Source of the DNA: Anaerolineae bacterium
GTDB taxonomy: Bacteria; Chloroflexota; Anaerolineae; Aggregatilineales; Ch27
Length of the DNA stretch: 64,000 nt
Direction of reading: 5' to 3'
Assembly (NCBI GenBank): GCA_013178165.1
Contig: JABLXG010000001.1
Span: 267,605-331,604 of the forward strand
The notes under the pieces were generated by a model. The model worked only from the letters and a program-made list of their open reading frames with translations, searched no databases and was not told the origin of the DNA. The translations under genes and the position numbers were made by a program. Numbering within the stretch: the first letter of the stretch is position 1; each line of letters opens with the position of its first letter. Of this stretch, positions 39,135 to 59,293 are shown piece after piece.

Positions 39135-39998
39135 ATGACCATATCCAGCGAGCGCCTTGACGTGATCAACCATGCCGGGTTTCTGCCCCCTGACCTGGCC
39201 GCCCGTTACGCCCGCCTGCAGGCTTTGCTGCGGGAAATGGGGCGGGTGATCGTGGCCTATTCCGGCGGGGTGGACAGCACCCTGCTGGCCAGGGTCGCCG
39301 CTGATGTGCTGGGCGGGGATATGCTGGCCGTCATGGCCATCAGCGAGAGCTATAGCGCCGCCGAGTTGCCGGAGGCGCTCGCACTGCTGGAGGAGCAAGG
39401 CATTCCTTACCGCACCGTGCGCACGCAGGAGGTGCACGATCCGCGCTATGCCGCCAACCCGGCGGATCGCTGTTACTTCTGCAAGCAGCATCTGTTCGCC
39501 GAGTTGTTTGCCATCGCCAGGGCAGAAGGCTTCAACGCCATTGTCGACGGTTTCAACGCCGATGATGTGGGCGATCACCGGCCCGGTCGCCAGGCCGGGC
39601 GGGAGCGCGGGGTGCGCAGCCCGCTCTACGAGGCCGGTCTGACCAAGGCTGACATCCGCCATCTGGCCCGCACCCTGGGCCTGCGCAACTGGAACAAACC
39701 GGCGATGGCCTGTCTGTCCAGCCGGGTTGCCTACGGCAGCCCGATCACGCCGGCTGTTCTGGCCCGGATCGATCAGGCGGAGGGCGTTCTTCGCAGCCTG
39801 GGGCTAGGGCAGTTACGCGTCCGCCATCATGACAGCCTGGCCCGGATCGAGGTCTCGTCGGAGGACATCGCGACGGTGTTGGCGCACCGCGAGCAGATCG
39901 TGGCCGGGCTGAAGGCGGCGGGCTATGTGTATGTCACGCTTGATCTGCAGGGCTTTCGCAGCGGCAGCGGCAACGAGGTGTTGACCCGCCATGAGTGA
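39135..39998 (+). CDS. larE: LarE, sulfur transferase for nickel-pincer nucleotide synthesis
   Basis: 287 residues. ATG 39135 has GGGAG about 8 nt upstream; the longer frame starting at 39015 is not used. PP-loop ATPase motif VIVAYSGGVDSTLLARV, then DRCYFCKQHLF and KPAMACLSSRVAYG. LarE adenylates and sulfurates pyridinium dicarboxylate adenine dinucleotide to make the nickel-pincer cofactor. The Cys in ACLSSR corresponds to the sulfur-donating region. Whether this protein is the sacrificial or the cluster-bound type cannot be told from one sequence. First gene of larE-larB-larC, overlapping larB by 8 nt. Confidence 0.92.
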   Translation: MTISSERLDVINHAGFLPPDLAARYARLQALLREMGRVIVAYSGGVDSTLLARVAADVLGGDMLAVMAISESYSAAELPEALALLEEQGIPYRTVRTQEVHDPRYAANPADRCYFCKQHLFAELFAIARAEGFNAIVDGFNADDVGDHRPGRQAGRERGVRSPLYEAGLTKADIRHLARTLGLRNWNKPAMACLSSRVAYGSPITPAVLARIDQAEGVLRSLGLGQLRVRHHDSLARIEVSSEDIATVLAHREQIVAGLKAAGYVYVTLDLQGFRSGSGNEVLTRHE

Positions 39999-40695
39999 TC
40001 ATCACTTCACTTTTGAGGAGGTGCAGGGCTTTGCCCGGCTGGATCACGATCGGGCTGCCCGCCAGGGATTGCCGGAGTTCGTTTACGCCGGGCATAAGAC
40101 GCCGGAGCAGGTAGCGGCGATCATGGCCAGCATGGTCGCGCGGCAGGGGTGCGCCCTGGCCAGCCGCGTTGCCCAGGCCCACGCCGATGCCGTTCGCACT
40201 GCGCTGCCGGAGGCGCACTTTAACGCTACAGCGGGCCTGATCACCGTCGGGCAGATGCCCCGCCAGGCGGCTGGGCTGGCCCGTGTTGTGGCGGCGGGCA
40301 CGTCTGATCTGCCGGTGGCGGAGGAAGCGGTTGGCGTCCTGGAGTTTCTGGGCGACCGGGTGGAGCGCCTGTACGATGTGGGCGTGGCCGGGGTGCATCG
40401 CCTGCTGGCCCATGTTGATGAGCTGGCCGGGGCCGATGTGCTGATCGTCGTGGCCGGGATGGAAGGCGCGCTGCCGACGGTGGTGGGCGGGCTGGTAGCG
40501 CCGCCGATCATCGCTGTGCCGACCAGCGTGGGCTACGGGGCCAGTCTGCAGGGGCTGGCGGCCCTGCTGGGGATGCTCAATAGCTGCGCGCCGGGCGTCT
40601 GCGTGGTCAACATCGACAATGGCCTGGGCGCGGCGGCGGCGGCTCACCGCATCCTCAACAGCCTGCGGCGGTCCTCCGGCAGCGCCGCTTCGTGA
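39991..40695 (+). CDS. larB: LarB, NaAD carboxylase/hydrolase for nickel-pincer nucleotide
   Basis: 234 residues. The C-terminal half has the PurE-like (AIR carboxylase) fold with GLITVGQMPRQAAGLARVVAAGTSDLPVAEEA, VGVAGVHRL, DVLIVVAGMEGALPTVVGGLV and VPTSVGYGASLQGLAALLGMLNSCAPG. LarB carboxylates and hydrolyses nicotinic acid adenine dinucleotide at the first step of the pathway. It is translationally coupled to larE (8-nt overlap) and is followed by larC 13 nt later. Confidence 0.93.
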   Translation: MSDHHFTFEEVQGFARLDHDRAARQGLPEFVYAGHKTPEQVAAIMASMVARQGCALASRVAQAHADAVRTALPEAHFNATAGLITVGQMPRQAAGLARVVAAGTSDLPVAEEAVGVLEFLGDRVERLYDVGVAGVHRLLAHVDELAGADVLIVVAGMEGALPTVVGGLVAPPIIAVPTSVGYGASLQGLAALLGMLNSCAPGVCVVNIDNGLGAAAAAHRILNSLRRSSGSAAS

Positions 40696-40708
40696 TGACG
40701 GAGCACTG

Positions 40709-41893
40709 ATGACGCGAATCGCCTATCTCGATCCGTTCGCCGGGACCAGCGGTGATATGTTGCTTGGCGCGTTGCTTGACGCCGGTTGGCCGCTGGAGGC
40801 GCTGCAAACGCTGGTCGATTCGCTCGGCATCCCCGGCGTAACCGTTTTCGCGGCGCGGGTGGAAAAGCGCGGCCTGGTGGGGACGCACGTCCGTGTTAAC
40901 GCGCCGGAATCCCAGCCGCTGCGTCACCCCGCCGATTTGCTGACGATCATCGATCGGGCGGATGCGCTGCCATCCGTCCGGGCGCGGGCCGCCGCTGTGA
41001 TCACCCGCCTGGCGGAAGCCGAGGCCCGCGTGCATGGCCTGGCGGTGGAAGATGTGCACTTTCACGAGATCGGCGCGGTGGACACGCTGGTGGATGTGCT
41101 GGGCGGCGTGGCCGGGCTGGCGGCGCTGGGTGTGGAACAGATCGTCTCCGCGCCGCTGCCCTGGTCAGGGGGAACCGTGCGGATCGCCCATGGCGTTTTT
41201 CCGGTCCCCCCTCCGGCGGTGGCTGTGCTGCTGGAAGGCTTCCCTGTGACGGGGGTTGACGTGCAGGGCGAGATGGTCACGCCGACGGGGGCGGCGCTGA
41301 TCACCGGCCTGGCGGAGTCGTTCGGCCTACCTCCAGACATGATCGTGCGGCGTGTTGCCTATGGCGCTGGGACGCGCGACTGGCCCGACCGGCCCAACCT
41401 GCTGCGGCTGGTGCTGGGCGACGCCGTTGATGGCGCGGCGGATGCGGTGGTGACCGAGACGCTGACCGTCCTGGCCTGTAACCTGGACGACATGCTGCCG
41501 CAGTGGTACGGGCCGCTGGTGGAAGCAGCCCTGCGGGCCGGGGCGCTGGACGTCTGGCTGACCCCGGCGCACATGAAAAAGAATCGTCCGGCGGTGATCG
41601 TTGAGGTGCTGTGCCGCCCGATGGATGCGGCGCGGCTGCGCGATCTGCTCTTCCGCCAGACGACGACGCTGGGCGTGCGGGAATATAGCGTGATCCGCCG
41701 GGCGCTGCCGCGGGAGATGCGAACCGTACACACGCCTTATGGCGAGGTGCGCATCAAGATCGGGTATCCACAGAATGGCTCGCCCAAGTTCGCCCCGGAG
41801 CATGACGATTGCGTGGCGCGAGCGTCCGAGCATGGTGTCAGCGTGCGGGAGGTCTGGCTGGCGGCGGTGCAGGCGGCCCGGCAGGCAATGTGA
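40709..41893 (+). CDS. larC: LarC, nickel insertase of the nickel-pincer nucleotide pathway
   Basis: 394 residues in one uninterrupted frame. Start MTRIAYLDPFAGTSGDMLLGALLDAG. Further family phrases: VHFHEIGAVDTLVDVLG (His/Glu metal ligands), PLPWSGGTVRIAHGVFPVPPPA, ACNLDDMLPQWYGPLVEAAL, DVWLTPAHMKKNRPA and PYGEVRIKIGY. In Lactiplantibacillus plantarum this protein is made by a programmed frameshift joining LarC1 and LarC2; here it is encoded as a single fused gene. It inserts nickel with CTP. No larA or other NPN-dependent enzyme lies in the window. Confidence 0.94.
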   Translation: MTRIAYLDPFAGTSGDMLLGALLDAGWPLEALQTLVDSLGIPGVTVFAARVEKRGLVGTHVRVNAPESQPLRHPADLLTIIDRADALPSVRARAAAVITRLAEAEARVHGLAVEDVHFHEIGAVDTLVDVLGGVAGLAALGVEQIVSAPLPWSGGTVRIAHGVFPVPPPAVAVLLEGFPVTGVDVQGEMVTPTGAALITGLAESFGLPPDMIVRRVAYGAGTRDWPDRPNLLRLVLGDAVDGAADAVVTETLTVLACNLDDMLPQWYGPLVEAALRAGALDVWLTPAHMKKNRPAVIVEVLCRPMDAARLRDLLFRQTTTLGVREYSVIRRALPREMRTVHTPYGEVRIKIGYPQNGSPKFAPEHDDCVARASEHGVSVREVWLAAVQAARQAM

Positions 41894-43640: not shown

Positions 43641-44243
43641 TCAGGCGCTTTCGGCGGACGACTTCTGACCCTGGTGGGTGGGTTGAATGCTGCGGTCGGC
43701 GTTGAAGGTCACCAGCATGCTGGCCGGGCTGTTTCCGCTGTTCTGAAAGCCGTGCGGCTGGCTGGCCTCAAAAACCAGGCTGTCGCCGGAGGAAAGGGTG
43801 AAGCGATAGTCGCCCACGCGGAAGTCCAGCGTGCCTTCCAGGCAGAAGATAAATTCCTCTCCGGGGTGGCTGATCAATTCGTTCGTCGTGCCTGCGCCGG
43901 GCTCAAGCACGATCAGGAAGGGTTGTACCTGCTGCTGGCGCAGGCCGATACCCAGACTTTCGATCACCATACCCTTGTGGCGGGTGATCAGGCGGTTATC
44001 GGCCCTGACCAGAATGACAGGCTGATTGCTTTCGTCCTCAAAGAAATCCGTGATGGCTACGCCAAGGGCCATCGCCAGCTGGTGCAGGGAAGAAACCGTC
44101 GGTGAATTTTCACCGCGTTCGATCCGGCTGATGGCGTTAATGGACAGGCCGCAACGTTCGGCCAGAGCGCGCAGGGACAGCCGCTGTTTCTCCCGCAGGG
44201 CGCGGATGCGTTGCCCGACGTTCGGCTCTCTCTTGGCAGTCAT
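43641..44243 (-). CDS. XRE-cupin transcriptional regulator
   Basis: 200 residues. N-terminal helix-turn-helix (about 9-65): VGQRIRALREKQRLSLRALAERCGLSINAISRIERGENSP. C-terminal cupin (about 105-190): ELISHPGEEFIFCLEGTLDFRVGDYRFTLSSGDSLVF, then PHGFQNSGNSPASML. These MltR/PuuR-type proteins sense a small ligand in the cupin and repress nearby genes. ATG 44243 has GAGGAG about 8 nt upstream. It is divergent from the UGA-containing redox gene, with a perfect palindrome between them. Confidence 0.92.
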   Translation of the reverse strand: MTAKREPNVGQRIRALREKQRLSLRALAERCGLSINAISRIERGENSPTVSSLHQLAMALGVAITDFFEDESNQPVILVRADNRLITRHKGMVIESLGIGLRQQQVQPFLIVLEPGAGTTNELISHPGEEFIFCLEGTLDFRVGDYRFTLSSGDSLVFEASQPHGFQNSGNSPASMLVTFNADRSIQPTHQGQKSSAESA

Positions 44244-44346: not shown

Positions 44347-44373
44347 TCTTTGCCGCTTGATTGGAGAAAAAAG

Positions 44374-44799
44374 ATGAGCAATCCCGCAGCGGTGGGACGC
44401 CAGGCCGGAGACTATATGCGGCAGGGCTTCAGTTGATCGGAGGCGATCGTGCTCGCCGTGGGCGAGCATCTATGGGGCAGCGTGGACGAACGCACCCGGC
44501 GCATGACATCCGCCTTCAGCGGCGGGCTGGGTGGCACACATGCCGAGTTGTGTGGGGCGTTGAGCGGCGGCGCGATGATCATCGGCGCTCTCAATGGGCG
44601 GGCCAACCTGATAGAGAGCAACGCCGCCTGCAAGGCGCTGGCCGCCCGTTACCGGGAGGCATTCCTGGCGCGCTTTGGGATGACGATCTGCAGCGACCTG
44701 CGCAGCCATGGCTACGGCGGGGGCGGCATCCCTTGCGCGGTGCTGGTGGAGCAGGCGGTTGAGGTGCTGCTCGACGTCCTGGCCGAAGCCGGCTACTGA
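44374..44799 (+). CDS. C-GCAxxG-C-C family redox protein with in-frame UGA (predicted selenocysteine 21)
   Basis: The ATG at 44374 follows TTGGAGAAAAAAG, a good ribosome site. Reading through TGA at 44434-44436 gives a 141-residue protein: MSNPAAVGRQAGDYMRQGFS, then UGA, then SEAIVLAVGEHLWG. In this family (Pfam Redox-active protein C_GCAxxG_C_C) the first conserved Cys lies in GFN-C-A/S-E-AV, exactly where the UGA stands. The other motifs are intact: FSGGLGGTHAELCGALSGG, NAACKALAARYREAF, MTICSDLR and GGGIPCAVLVEQAVEVLLDVL. A SECIS-like hairpin follows the UGA. Function is presumed thiol redox, with no substrate known. Alternative: a nonsense mutation, or initiation downstream at GTG 44449, which would lose the motif. 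Confidence 0.85.
44451..44467 (+). promoter_or_regulatory. bSECIS-like stem-loop of the C-GCAxxG-C-C gene
   Basis: GCTCGCC (44451-44457), loop GTG (44458-44460), GGCGAGC (44461-44467): a perfect 7-bp stem, extended by a T-A and a G-U pair. The loop starts 21 nt after the UGA and begins GU. Its architecture is the same as that of the hairpin in the thioredoxin-like gene although the sequences differ. Confidence 0.75.
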
Positions 44800-54310: not shown

Positions 54311-54817
54311 TTAACTGGTGGACTTAAGCTCGTCCAGGATAGCCGCGCACAGCGCCGGGATGGCAGCCCTGACCGGCTCGCTCAGCCCGACTGTCCAATC
54401 AAGGTTCAGGGGCTGGACGCCGTAGATGGTGATCGCGGCGGGCAGGACATCCAGCGCTTCTCCCAGGGCCAGGGCTTCGGCCAGCCCGGCGTAATGGACC
54501 GCTACACGCGCATGCAGGTCATTTGCTGTCAGTGTAGCATCTTTTAAAGTAAAGCGAACCCACTCCCCCGGCGCACGGCCCATTTCCGCCGCATCGACGA
54601 TGATCGCCCGTCCATAGCCCTGCAGCAGCAGGACGGTCTCCAGGCCGGGCGTGCCGCCATCCTGCACGGTCACGTCGGGTGGCAGACTCTCCGCCGCCAG
54701 GCGCTCAACAACCGCCTGCCCCACGCCATCATCGCCACGCAGCGGGTTGCCCAGCGCCAGGACGAGCGTGCGTCCCGGCGCCGGGGAAGGGTCGTGATGA
54801 TCAGACAAACTGCACAT
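54311..54817 (-). CDS. [NiFe] hydrogenase maturation protease
   Basis: 168 residues of the HyaD/HybD/HycI family: TLVLALGNPLRGDDGVGQAVVERLA with the nickel-sensing Asp, DGGTPGLETVLLLQGYGRAIIVDAAEMG, and ITIYGVQPLNLDWTVGLSEPVRAAIP. It cleaves the C-terminal peptide of the large subunit after nickel insertion. The gene overlaps the end of the large-subunit gene by 17 nt, fitting a dedicated protease for this enzyme. Confidence 0.92.
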   Translation of the reverse strand: MCSLSDHHDPSPAPGRTLVLALGNPLRGDDGVGQAVVERLAAESLPPDVTVQDGGTPGLETVLLLQGYGRAIIVDAAEMGRAPGEWVRFTLKDATLTANDLHARVAVHYAGLAEALALGEALDVLPAAITIYGVQPLNLDWTVGLSEPVRAAIPALCAAILDELKSTS

Positions 54818-56093
54818 TCAGCAGGTGAGTCGAGCAGGAAATGCACGGGTCGTAAGCGCGCACCAGCATCTCCAGGGCCCGGGTGATCTGTTCCTGGGTA
54901 CGGTCCAGGATTTCCGGCACCAGTTTGCGCATGTCGGCCTCGATGTTGGCCAGGTTCTGGCCGGTCGGGATGATACAGTTGGCGCCGATCACCTTGCCAT
55001 CTTCGATTACGTAGTTGTGGAAGAGCGTTCCGCGCGGCACGTCGCATGCGCCGACGCCCTCGCCGGACAGGCGGGTGGGCGGGGCTGGTTCTTCCCAGAC
55101 AACGCCGCGGGCCAGTAGCTGGTCGATCAGGCGGATGGCGTCTTCCACACAGTGGACGATCTCCACTACCTGGGCAACGGTGTTCATGTACGGGTTGGTG
55201 TTCTTGGGCTTGAGGCCCAGCGTAGCAGCGGCGGCTTTGGCGCGGGGATGGAGCTGGTCGTAGTTCACGTTGAAGCGAGCCAGCGCCCCGACCATATACG
55301 ACTCGCGCTGGTTGGCTGTGTGCTTGGCGCTGGAATGAGGCACGATGGTTTCGTTGGTCACCCGGCGGTAATCCTCGGTCGGCCAGGTGCCGCCATCCGT
55401 GCTGGCGATCACGCCGTCGATGAAGCAGTATTCGTCCGGCTTGTGCAGGGCGATGTATTCCGTATCGCGGGAGAAGTCCGGTATTGGCAGCGTGCTGAAG
55501 AGTTCAACGGTGGTGTCCACATCGGCGCGCATGGCAACCAGCCGTTCGCGCAGAGCGGCCAATTCCTCGCTGGTTGGGAAGTGGGTGAAGCCGCCAACCG
55601 TCATGGCGATGGGATGCGTGTGGCGTCCGCTAATCGCCTTGCACAGGTCGCCGGCCAGCTTCTTCATCCGCAGGGCGCGCAGGACGACTTCCGGGGCGCT
55701 CTTGGCCAGCGGGATGACGCTGCCGACGCCCAGAAAGTCCGGCGCGACAAGCATATAGGCGTGCAGGATGTGGCTATCCAGGATTTCACCGTGAAAATTC
55801 AGCTTACGCAGCAGGACAGTCTGCTCGCTGGGCTGGACGCCGAGCGCCTTTTCCGTAGCGCGCAGGGAGGCTGTGGCATGGCCGACGGCGCAGATGCCGC
55901 AGATGCGCGAGGTAATGTGTGAGGAATCGCTGTAGGGCCGCCCGCGCAGCATAGCCTCAAAGAAGCGTGGCGTTTCGACGATCTGCAGCTCGCACTGCTT
56001 CAATTCGCCATTCTGAACATCGACAACGATGTTCCCGTGGCCCTCCACACGGGTGAGGTGATGGACATCTACCTTCAGGGATTTGGTGGTCAT
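54801..56093 (-). CDS. group 3b [NiFe] hydrogenase large (alpha) subunit
   Basis: 430 residues. The N-terminal L1 motif is SRICGICAVGH and the C-terminal L2 motif is DPCISCSTH, followed by a short peptide LLNVQFV that the protease would remove. All four nickel ligands are Cys. RVEGHGN near the start is also typical. Together with the beta, gamma and delta genes upstream this is the cytosolic NAD(P)-linked, sulfhydrogenase-type enzyme (HydA/HyhL). It interconverts H2 and protons with NAD(P). Confidence 0.95.
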   Translation of the reverse strand: MTTKSLKVDVHHLTRVEGHGNIVVDVQNGELKQCELQIVETPRFFEAMLRGRPYSDSSHITSRICGICAVGHATASLRATEKALGVQPSEQTVLLRKLNFHGEILDSHILHAYMLVAPDFLGVGSVIPLAKSAPEVVLRALRMKKLAGDLCKAISGRHTHPIAMTVGGFTHFPTSEELAALRERLVAMRADVDTTVELFSTLPIPDFSRDTEYIALHKPDEYCFIDGVIASTDGGTWPTEDYRRVTNETIVPHSSAKHTANQRESYMVGALARFNVNYDQLHPRAKAAAATLGLKPKNTNPYMNTVAQVVEIVHCVEDAIRLIDQLLARGVVWEEPAPPTRLSGEGVGACDVPRGTLFHNYVIEDGKVIGANCIIPTGQNLANIEADMRKLVPEILDRTQEQITRALEMLVRAYDPCISCSTHLLNVQFV

Positions 56094-56096
56094 GGG

Positions 56097-56852
56097 TTAG
56101 CCTGCCTCTTCCAATGCCATGATCTGGTTGGTCAGGAACATGGAGAGCTTCGCGTCGATAGCCTCGTCGGTCAGGCCATGCTCGTGCATGACCTGGCGCA
56201 TGGCCTCGATGTTGGGGTTGGCGATCAGGCCGCGGCAACCCTCGCAACCGTCACCGTAGGTCGGGCAGATGGCGTCGCAACCGGCCAGCGTGATCGGCCC
56301 CAGGCAGACCTTGCCCCGCGTATAGACGCAGATGTTTTCCTTGAGCTTGCACTCCATGCACAGCGGCTGATCGGGGATGAAGGGCATCCGACCCTGCAGC
56401 AGGTGCGTCACCGCCTTGATGAATTCCCGCCGATCGATGGGGCAGCCGGGGATGACGGCGTCAACCTTGATCACGTCCTTGATCGGGCGCGGTTCATAAG
56501 TCTCGAACCATTCGGCCCGATCGCCATAGACGTATTCGCGGACTTCCTGCAGGGGCATGCGGTTGCGGATGGCGTTGACGCCACCCAGATGTGCGCACGC
56601 GCCCAGGGCTACGACGATGGCCGCCTGCTGCCGGATGGCCTGCAGCTTCGGCTCATCGCTGGGCCGTGAGCAGGAGCCTTCGATGAAGGCGATGGCGTAG
56701 TCCTCGCCCTTCTCGCTCATGGCTTCCCGGAACTGGACGATCTCCACCGTGTCCAGCAATTCCGGATGATCCTGCAGCGAGTCAACCACGGTGAGCTGGC
56801 AACCCTCGCAACTGGTGAATTCAAAAAAGGCAACTTTGGGTTTGGCAGACAT
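56097..56852 (-). CDS. group 3b [NiFe] hydrogenase small (delta) subunit
   Basis: 251 residues. Proximal cluster ligands: FFEFTSCEGCQLTV, ALGACAHLGGV and DAVIPGCPIDRREF. Further Cys occur in CMECKLKENICVYTRGKVCLGPITLAGCDAICPTYGDGCEGCRG for two more clusters. No Tat signal peptide, so it is cytosolic. ATG 56852 shares one nucleotide with the stop of the gamma gene (TGATG). It relays electrons between the Ni-Fe site and the gamma/beta subunits. Confidence 0.94.
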   Translation of the reverse strand: MSAKPKVAFFEFTSCEGCQLTVVDSLQDHPELLDTVEIVQFREAMSEKGEDYAIAFIEGSCSRPSDEPKLQAIRQQAAIVVALGACAHLGGVNAIRNRMPLQEVREYVYGDRAEWFETYEPRPIKDVIKVDAVIPGCPIDRREFIKAVTHLLQGRMPFIPDQPLCMECKLKENICVYTRGKVCLGPITLAGCDAICPTYGDGCEGCRGLIANPNIEAMRQVMHEHGLTDEAIDAKLSMFLTNQIMALEEAG

Positions 56853-57703
56853 CAGAGCGCCTCCTCCAGGTGCTTGATTTCGGCATACGAGAAGGAAGGG
56901 CCGTCCTGGCAGGTGTAGATGTGATGCATCTGGCAGTGGCCGCACTTGCCCACACCGCACTTCATGTGGCGCTCAAAGCTGAACCAGATGTTGCCTTCGG
57001 CGATGCCCTTGCCCAGCAGTTCCATCAGGACAAAGCGATACATGACCGGCGGGCCAACGACAACGGCCACCATGTTGCGCGGATGGATCTGGACCTTGGG
57101 GAAGAGGGTGGTCACTACGCCGACATTGCCCGTCCAGCTCTCGTCGGCCCGGTCAACCGTCATGTGGAACTCGATATCAGTCCGTTGTTGCCACTGCGCA
57201 ATCTCATCGCGGAACAGGATTTCGGATGGGGAGCGGGTGCCGTAGAGGATGATCACCCGGCCGTACTTGCCGCGCTCGTCAAGCACCTCGTTGATCAGGG
57301 AGCGCAGCGGGGCCAGCCCCAGGCCGCCCGGCACAAAGAGGATATCCTTGCCGCGGAAGCGCTCCACCGGGAAGCCGCGCCCGAAGGGGCCGCGCAGCCC
57401 CAGCATGGCCCCCGGCTTGAGGGCATGCATGGCGTTGGTCACGCTACCCACACGACGCACACACACCTCAAAGCTGCCGTTGCTGCGGCTGGGCGAGGAT
57501 GAGATGCTGATCGGCGCTTCGCCAACGCCCAGCACGGAGATCTGCACGAACTGGCCGGGGCGGTGATTGAGGGAAAACCCGCTGGGCAGTTCGATGGTGA
57601 AAAGCTTCTCCAGCGCCGTCAGGTCTTTTACAGCGGTGATCCGCGCTGGCGTGGGCATGTAGATCGATGAGTGTTTGAGGGTTTCTTTGAGCAGGGTGGT
57701 CAT
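56852..57703 (-). CDS. group 3b hydrogenase gamma subunit, FAD/NAD(P)-binding
   Basis: 283 residues of the ferredoxin-NADP reductase superfamily: the FAD-domain phrase RPGQFVQISVLGVGEAPISISSSP, the GPFGRGFPVERFRGKDILFVPGGLGLAPLRSLI nucleotide site, and a terminal [2Fe-2S] set CGVGKCGHCQMHHIYTCQDGP. Homologous to HydG/HyhG of Pyrococcus sulfhydrogenases and to PyrK-type subunits. It exchanges electrons with NAD(P)H. The start overlaps the beta-gene stop by 4 nt. Confidence 0.93.
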   Translation of the reverse strand: MTTLLKETLKHSSIYMPTPARITAVKDLTALEKLFTIELPSGFSLNHRPGQFVQISVLGVGEAPISISSSPSRSNGSFEVCVRRVGSVTNAMHALKPGAMLGLRGPFGRGFPVERFRGKDILFVPGGLGLAPLRSLINEVLDERGKYGRVIILYGTRSPSEILFRDEIAQWQQRTDIEFHMTVDRADESWTGNVGVVTTLFPKVQIHPRNMVAVVVGPPVMYRFVLMELLGKGIAEGNIWFSFERHMKCGVGKCGHCQMHHIYTCQDGPSFSYAEIKHLEEAL

Positions 57704-58761
57704 GCTTGCTTGGCCTCCTCCAGAATTTCACCCTTCTTGTGGCGGCGGTACAGTTCATTAAAGGTATCAACAGGGGTAATGTGCACCAGGCAGGCCGCTG
57801 CACAGCGCCCGCAGCCCACGCAGCCGATCAGGCCGTAGGCTTCCAGGTGGTACTTGCCCTTGCGCATAAAGCGGTGACGGTTGCGCAGGGCGCGCGTGGA
57901 GCGGAAGTTATGGCCGCCGGCCACCGTGGCGAAACGATCGATCTGGCAGGAGTCCCAGGTGCGGGTGCGTTGCCCTTTGGTCAGGCTCAGGTCAACCTCA
58001 TCACGCACGTCGAAGCAGTAGCAGGTCGGGCAGACCTTGGTGCACTGCCCGCAGCCCAGGCAGATGTCCCCCAGTTCGTTCCAGAGTGAACTGTTGTTGC
58101 TCAGGGCCAGCAGGTCAGGCAGCTCGGTCACGTCGAAATTGAGCCGGTAGGAGAAGCGCGGCCATTTTTCGGCCATGACCTTGTTGATGCGCTGGTAGTC
58201 TTCGCTGGTGGGGTCCCAGATGGCGGTGAAGCCCTGCAGCAGCGCCTCGCCCTTTTCCGAGCCGACATCGACGCCGTAGCTGTCGCCCAGGTCGGTCAGG
58301 TGCAGGTCGTAGTCTTCCGGCACGGTGAGCGTCCCCATGCTCTTGCAGAAGGACTGTTCCATGCACGGGCTGAGGCATTCGATGCTGACCAGGGTGGTAT
58401 GCTGCCGGTGAGCCTGGTAGTGCTGATCGGTGTAGCCAGTGGCGTGCACCTTGTCCAGCAGCCGGATGGCGTGCATGTCGCAGGTATGTACGCCCAGGAT
58501 CACTGTTGGCTCCCATTCGATATTCGCCTTCATCTGCATGCTCTGCGCATCGAAGGTGAAGAGCGTCTCGCGCTGGGGCAGCAGGTACTTCTTGGGCGGC
58601 AGGACGCTGGTCGGGTAATCGAGGACCAGCTCGTCCGGGCTGGCGATCTCGGCGAATACATACTGGCCCTGGCGGGCGGTGGGGCCGACAACCCGGTAAC
58701 GGTTCTTCAGCCAGGTGACCCAGTCCGGGAGGGCGGCTTTGGGCATGATTTTGAAGCTCAT
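57700..58761 (-). CDS. group 3b hydrogenase beta subunit, 4Fe-4S
   Basis: 353 residues. ATG 58761 has GGAG about 11 nt upstream and starts MSFKIMPKAALPDWVTWL. Two ferredoxin-type clusters are bound by ICLGCGQCTKVCPTCYC and GCVGCGRCAAACLVHITP, and an earlier domain has ILGVHTCDMHAIRLLD and SIECLSPCMEQSFCKSMG. The same arrangement is found in HydB and in anaerobic sulfite reductase subunit A. It heads the operon beta-gamma-delta-alpha, the order known from Pyrococcus hydBGDA. A CRP/FNR-type site lies 107 nt upstream. Confidence 0.94.
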   Translation of the reverse strand: MSFKIMPKAALPDWVTWLKNRYRVVGPTARQGQYVFAEIASPDELVLDYPTSVLPPKKYLLPQRETLFTFDAQSMQMKANIEWEPTVILGVHTCDMHAIRLLDKVHATGYTDQHYQAHRQHTTLVSIECLSPCMEQSFCKSMGTLTVPEDYDLHLTDLGDSYGVDVGSEKGEALLQGFTAIWDPTSEDYQRINKVMAEKWPRFSYRLNFDVTELPDLLALSNNSSLWNELGDICLGCGQCTKVCPTCYCFDVRDEVDLSLTKGQRTRTWDSCQIDRFATVAGGHNFRSTRALRNRHRFMRKGKYHLEAYGLIGCVGCGRCAAACLVHITPVDTFNELYRRHKKGEILEEAKQA

Positions 58762-59293
58762 GATCGTCTTACTCCGTTTTTGGGGCAGTGTCCGGCGGGG
58801 CGTTGAAGCGGCGATGTTCCGGCTGCGCGGATGGTAGGGCTGGAATCGACACTGTATGATTGTGAAAGGCTTCACATCGGCTCAAGGGTAATCGATCTGC
58901 TGATGGCCGGTAACTAATGCTTATCACAAAAAAAGCAGGCGTTAGTCCTGATCAGGCGTTTTGTCCGCCAGGAAGGGAGCATCGTCATCCCCGGCCCGGG
59001 GGCAGGCGTGGCGGAATGGTTTGAGTTTCATAACATCCACCACTTTTTTACCCTTTTTTACCACCCAGCAGGCAAATTGCTGGTAAAACAATCAATAGGA
59101 CTATTAGGCTATTTTTCCGGGCTGTGTTAACGACCCAGGAGACAAAGGGGGAGCCGGCTATACCTGACCTGCCATCAGCCGCTCGGAGAGTGTTTACTGT
59201 AGTGGATGTACCCCGAGCGCGGAAAGTTTGTTGAGGCGCGGGCCTATCTTCGCTTATCCTGCTGCGCCGCTTATTTTATCCGTGAGGAGAAAG
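58762..59293. other. 532-nt divergent region between hydrogenase and nuclease genes
   Basis: No gene is supported in this AT-richer region. It holds the CRP/FNR-type palindrome at 58861, A/T runs near 58928 and 59045-59062, a small stem CCAGCA/TGCTGG (59064-59082), and the strong ribosome site GAGGAGAAAG before 59294. Promoters for both directions must lie here but no clear -35/-10 pair stands out. Confidence 0.5.
58861..58876. promoter_or_regulatory. CRP/FNR-type palindrome upstream of the hydrogenase operon
   Basis: TGTGAAAGGCTTCACA, a perfect palindrome with 6-nt arms matching TGTGA-N6-TCACA. Its centre is 107 nt upstream of the first hydrogenase gene, nearly the same distance as the site before the DASS transporter gene. 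Confidence 0.66.

Follow-up and report, generated by a model that had tools for sequence, protein, structure and literature searches.

Selenoproteins of the C-GCAxxG-C-C family are already known as a kind. The family is described by PF09719 and by TIGR01909, named 'C-GCAxxG-C-C family (seleno)protein', and two selenoprotein forms, 1 and 2, have been catalogued (PMC9312934, PMC13188914; examples MGD8741185.1 and WP_012158890.1). An earlier note on the DNA studied here had mentioned such annotations, and both the NCBIfam name and the reviews bear this out. As far as the accessible passages of the two reviews describe them, forms 1 and 2 share with the protein considered below their Pfam family and a single selenocysteine (Sec); these passages give no Sec column. 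The terms 'Chloroflexi' and 'Chloroflexota' are absent from the two reviews, and the family name does not occur in the main text of the GOS paper, which is cited by the review for form 2. Two families with a related domain are the HUGP/GUXX-star fusion selenoprotein (NF045501) and the DVU_1555 family (NF045669).

Members of the C-GCAxxG-C-C family have been reported within an aldehyde oxidoreductase cluster of Clostridium ljungdahlii (PMC5640608) and among the proteins induced by acetone in Desulfococcus biacutus (PMC4103992). These two cases suggest a role in anaerobic redox metabolism, and they name no partner. We found neither an assigned biochemical activity nor a matching solved structure for the family, which therefore is a reasonable target.

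The window, by which we mean the whole 64,000-nucleotide stretch of DNA that was analysed, carries on its forward strand a gene (44374..44799, +) that matches this family over its full length and has all of the defining cysteine positions, the first as UGA. Specifically, the frame translates as MSNPAAVGRQAGDYMRQGFS-UGA-SEAIVLAVGEHLWG..., or at greater length as MSNPAAVGRQAGDYMRQGFS-UGA-SEAIVLAVGEHLWGSVDERTRRMTSAFSGGLGGTHAELCGALSGG...FGMTICSDL...IPCAVLVEQ..., and ends at a TGA terminator (44797-44799). The predicted product would comprise 141 amino acids with Sec at residue 21 (UGA at 44434..44436, +), followed by Cys60 of the CGAxxG motif (here CGALSG; 44551..44553, +), Cys106 (44689..44691, +) and Cys121 (44734..44736, +). 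The protein scores 73.9 bits against PF09719 over residues 19-132 (cut-off 27) and 67.6 bits against TIGR01909 (curated cut-off 47.4), with four conserved cysteine positions including CGAxxG, namely 21 (UGA), 60, 106 and 121. It is a member of neither family with a related domain, reaching 31.2 of 325 bits for NF045501 and 44 of 103 bits for NF045669. A paralogue in the same genome (G000 C11:109684-110052) belongs to the same Pfam family but differs from the window protein, to which it is only 35% identical, in that its first conserved position is Cys (GLYCAES).

Compared with the C_GCAxxG_C_C family at large, the window gene lies in a divergent branch with the motif G-[YF]-H/S-U-[SA]-E-A..LAVGEH, most sampled members of which carry Sec. 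What sequence comparison adds to the known kind is a further member, in a mostly Sec-bearing branch with a covarying selenocysteine insertion sequence (SECIS), for which the comparative evidence is strong.

Homologues were sought in 396 genomes of the same bacterial class (presumably Anaerolineae, phylum Chloroflexota), and matches were obtained in 114 of these, many with a single in-frame TGA. We read 62 homologous loci. The earlier note had proposed an alignment to see whether Cys or Sec occupies the UGA column; when this was carried out, column 21 proved to be UGA in 50 homologues, TGT or TGC (Cys) in 12 and any other codon in none. Because similarity to the Sec protein guided the choice of loci, and several distant members were included for carrying TGA, 50:12 is not a family-wide ratio; most PF09719 matches in a phylum-wide sample contain no stop at all. 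Positions 21, 60, 106 and 121 are Cys or Sec in 62/62 homologues, and the only remaining invariant columns are G51 and G61. The UGA thus occupies the first conserved cysteine of the family, and Cys60, Cys106 and Cys121 are conserved in the same frame, much as the earlier note had read from the bare letters. Three members (L090, L092 and L096) initially appeared to have Cys at the column through an indel artefact; on realignment their UGA falls three codons further. Also, an apparent UAG in homologue L022/L055 was considered as a second recoded stop and was rejected, because it is a normal terminator; column 21 of this protein is Cys.

The same codon recurs in independently obtained genomes. 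A same-genus genome (G001; record JAIOAT010000063.1, 'Chloroflexi bacterium isolate S1bins113') has a copy that is 96% identical and carries the same TGA, a same-family genome (G003) has TGA at column 21, another (G004) has TGT (Cys), and 47 further homologues have TGA. A sequencing error at 44434-44436, which the earlier note had raised against its own reading, is excluded by these occurrences. Between the window and its same-genus relative, the 20 codons 5′ of the UGA have undergone 2 synonymous changes and no non-synonymous ones, compared with 15 changes in the 200 nt that precede the ATG. The N-terminal part is therefore coding, and this purifying pattern of change also argues against a pseudogene.

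Could the UGA nevertheless be a true stop, with the functional product beginning at GTG 44449 and lacking residue 21? An open frame of 116 residues does begin at this GTG (44449..44451, +), as the earlier note had foreseen in predicting that simple gene callers would start there and lose the active-site residue, and its product still scores as a family member, with the PF09719 match falling to 62.5 bits. This explanation is very improbable when set against the exchange of UGA and Cys across the 62 homologues, the exclusively synonymous differences that the two same-genus genomes show in the codons 5′ of the UGA, and the GGAG box (44363..44366, +) that lies 7 nt 5′ of the upstream ATG. The box, which had been noted at the outset as a good ribosome site, is shared with the same-genus relative (L025). 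Furthermore, GTG 44449 itself sits within a conserved hairpin.

This SECIS-like hairpin (44449..44469, +) has a stem of 8-9 bp, composed of a 5′ arm GTGCTCGCC (44449-44457, +) and a 3′ arm GGCGAGCAT (44461-44469, +), and a GTG (GUG) loop (44458-44460, +) that begins after the 21 nt following the UGA. A published model for bacterial SECIS elements calls for a loop of 3-9 nt with G and then G or U as its first nucleotides, a distance of 16-37 nt from the UGA and a minimum free energy (MFE) of -7.5 kcal/mol or lower (PMC13188914). The window hairpin conforms to this model, with its GUG loop, its distance of 21 nt and a local MFE of -15.2 kcal/mol. No Rfam model matched at gathering thresholds anywhere in the window, so Rfam lends the hairpin no support. 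The GTG at 44449-44451 forms the first codon of the stem, and hence the truncated annotation and the recoding signal coincide.

We scored the hairpin as present when the GU loop was accompanied by 7 or all 8 of the core pairs. In the main clade, this holds for 41/41 UGA members, in contrast to 1/9 Cys members. Standard pairs fill 92% of pair cells in the 41 UGA genes that share the register and 55% in 12 Cys genes, and the GU of the loop is invariant in those 41 genes. Four stem pairs exhibit changes on both sides, and the resulting covariation score was matched by 0/500 shuffles and exceeds that of the best slid register by about twofold or more.

Because the amino acid conservation of LAVGEH shares part of the hairpin signal, it is important that stability be assessed with the protein held fixed. 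When synonymous codons were redrawn at the GC3 of each gene, the 50 UGA genes exhibited stability beyond codon choice (mean z -1.80), compared with a mean z of -0.28 for the 12 Cys genes (Mann-Whitney p 7e-5, a value that, like the other p-values relating hairpin and UGA, ignores relatedness). Of the four phylogenetically independent pairs in the main clade, three are informative; all agree with the expectation, but their number is too small for significance. In L055, the closest Cys relative (from G004, a genome of the same family as that of the window), the SECIS-like hairpin is still perfect although the UGA is gone, which may reflect a recent change from Sec to Cys or a constraint at the protein level. 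Eight of nine distant UGA members (L102-L108 and L110) have no hairpin in the register of the window; some of them fold other local hairpins.

The genome (4.19 Mb, 98.6% complete) encodes selA (545 bits), selB (353 bits) and selD (372 bits), together with a tRNA-Sec whose anticodon is UCA, and it is thus equipped with all of selA, selB, selC and selD. ARAGORN detected no tRNA in the window, and selC resides on another contig. The selD gene (L114, C32:61473-62408 of the same genome) has its own in-frame TGA (ALASCAG-U-ASKLG), at the usual Sec position of SelD. Just past this UGA lies a hairpin of 6 bp; its 7-nt loop is approximately 13 nt from the codon, nearer than the published 16-37 nt.

Across the class sample, we counted selA by hand in those genomes whose members were read. 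Matches above the cut-off were found in 45/47 UGA genomes versus 8/11 Cys genomes (Fisher p 0.04, uncorrected for relatedness). One UGA genome (G229, 82% complete) yielded a weak selA match only, and selA was not detected in another (G305, 93% complete, UGA member L106), where a missing contig, contamination (7%) or a non-functional member may be responsible.

These genes also bear on the idea that the UGA arises from a sequencing error or a pseudogene, or from an altered code in which UGA means Cys or Trp throughout. No evidence supporting any of these three was found, and together they are extremely improbable. The same UGA is present in independent genomes, as described above; TGA terminates most of the neighbouring genes that were checked and the selenoprotein gene itself; and a proper tRNA-Sec(UCA) is encoded along with selA, selB and selD.

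The comparative data, coupled with the presence of the machinery genes, indicate that the UGA at 44434-44436 is almost certainly read as selenocysteine in this C_GCAxxG_C_C gene. Translation would begin at ATG 44374 and meet, at 44434-44436, a codon that is normally a stop for the ribosome. The hairpin at 44449-44469 would then recruit SelB carrying Sec-tRNA(Sec), with the result that Sec is inserted at residue 21. We infer this step from established bacterial Sec biology; the genes for the machinery and the signal are what we see here. Standard gene calling would cut the window protein short at what is likely its active-site residue, and the same probably applies to many related proteins.

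Exchange between Sec and Cys appears to have occurred repeatedly within the branch, which is largely Sec-bearing among the close relatives sampled by sequence. Seven Sec/Cys changes are placed on the maximum-likelihood tree, and at least six are forced by well supported branches. Moreover, the residue has been exchanged between loci that keep the same neighbours. One such group has UGA in L082, L084, L086, L088, L097 and L098 and Cys in L087, L095, L099 and L101, beside genes that resemble those for galactokinase and Xaa-Pro peptidase; a second has UGA in L056 and L067 and Cys in L071 and L077, beside Yip1-like and PHP-like genes (in both groups the neighbours were named from their sequences and not by a database result). 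Such naturally recurring Sec/Cys exchanges, combined with a clearly covarying SECIS, make the branch useful both as training material for selenoprotein finders and for asking what Sec adds. We consider it possible, albeit doubtful, that Sec is ancestral in a distinct and unrecognised Chloroflexota selenoprotein subfamily with a function of its own, in which several losses to Cys would have been accompanied by SECIS decay and whose all-helical Sec/Cys3 centre has no match among solved folds.

A predicted model of the protein, of very high confidence (mean pLDDT 96.5, pTM 0.91), is compact and all-helical, with helices at residues 4-16, 21-34, 39-51, 61-74, 84-101, 106-111 and 121-138. Since helices start at 21, 61, 106 and 121, the model would place each of Sec21, Cys60, Cys106 and Cys121 at the N-terminus of a helix or immediately beside it, a location that stabilises a thiolate or selenolate. 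A search of PDB folds gave no significant match, and a phmmer search returned none; the sole hint from sequence comes from split-Soret cytochrome c (1h21), whose profile matches weakly (E 0.0015) across the CGAxxG region.

Exchange of Sec and Cys at position 21 alone points to residue 21 as the reactive residue. The product is most likely a selenol-based oxidoreductase. Its reactive nucleophile would be Sec21, and the selenenyl-sulfide would be resolved by one of the three cysteines. The main competing proposal, which we regard as unlikely, accepts Sec but makes Sec21, Cys60, Cys106 and Cys121 a metal or iron-sulfur site, so that the protein would be an electron carrier or a cofactor-delivery protein. 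Four invariant sulfur or selenium ligands at helix starts are compatible with such a site, as are the weak cytochrome match, the ferredoxin-type, MobB and other cofactor-related neighbours found at a few loci, and the location of the C. ljungdahlii member beside an aldehyde oxidoreductase (PMC5640608). However, one position swaps Sec and Cys repeatedly and the other three are always Cys, which is typical of a catalytic residue. Sec is also rare as an iron-sulfur ligand, the enrichment among neighbours is weak, and no solved structure matches the fold.

Gene context was examined for 26 loci, and their 86 neighbouring proteins include ABC transporters (6), metallo-β-lactamase folds (5), phosphotriesterases (4), ferredoxin-type proteins (4), MobB (3) and URO-D (3), with no dominant partner family found. 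Because neighbourhoods vary outside close relatives, context names no substrate for the probable oxidoreductase. Upstream of the window gene is a divergent gene for a helix-turn-helix and cupin regulator (43641..44243, -), and the two genes possibly share a promoter region. Beyond the regulator lies a gene for an FHA-domain protein, an apparent homologue of which (43% identity, mixed alignment) is directly upstream in G003 too. The convergent gene downstream encodes a class V aminotransferase.

Elsewhere in the window, adjacent genes at 39991-41893 encode an AIRC-domain protein and a nickel-insertion protein (PF01969, 439 bits); the pair probably corresponds to larB and larC, which belong to the pathway for the nickel-pincer cofactor. 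Also, four genes at 54801-58875 (-) resemble, from their translations only, those for the large, small, FAD/NAD-type and 4Fe-4S subunits of a [NiFe]-hydrogenase.
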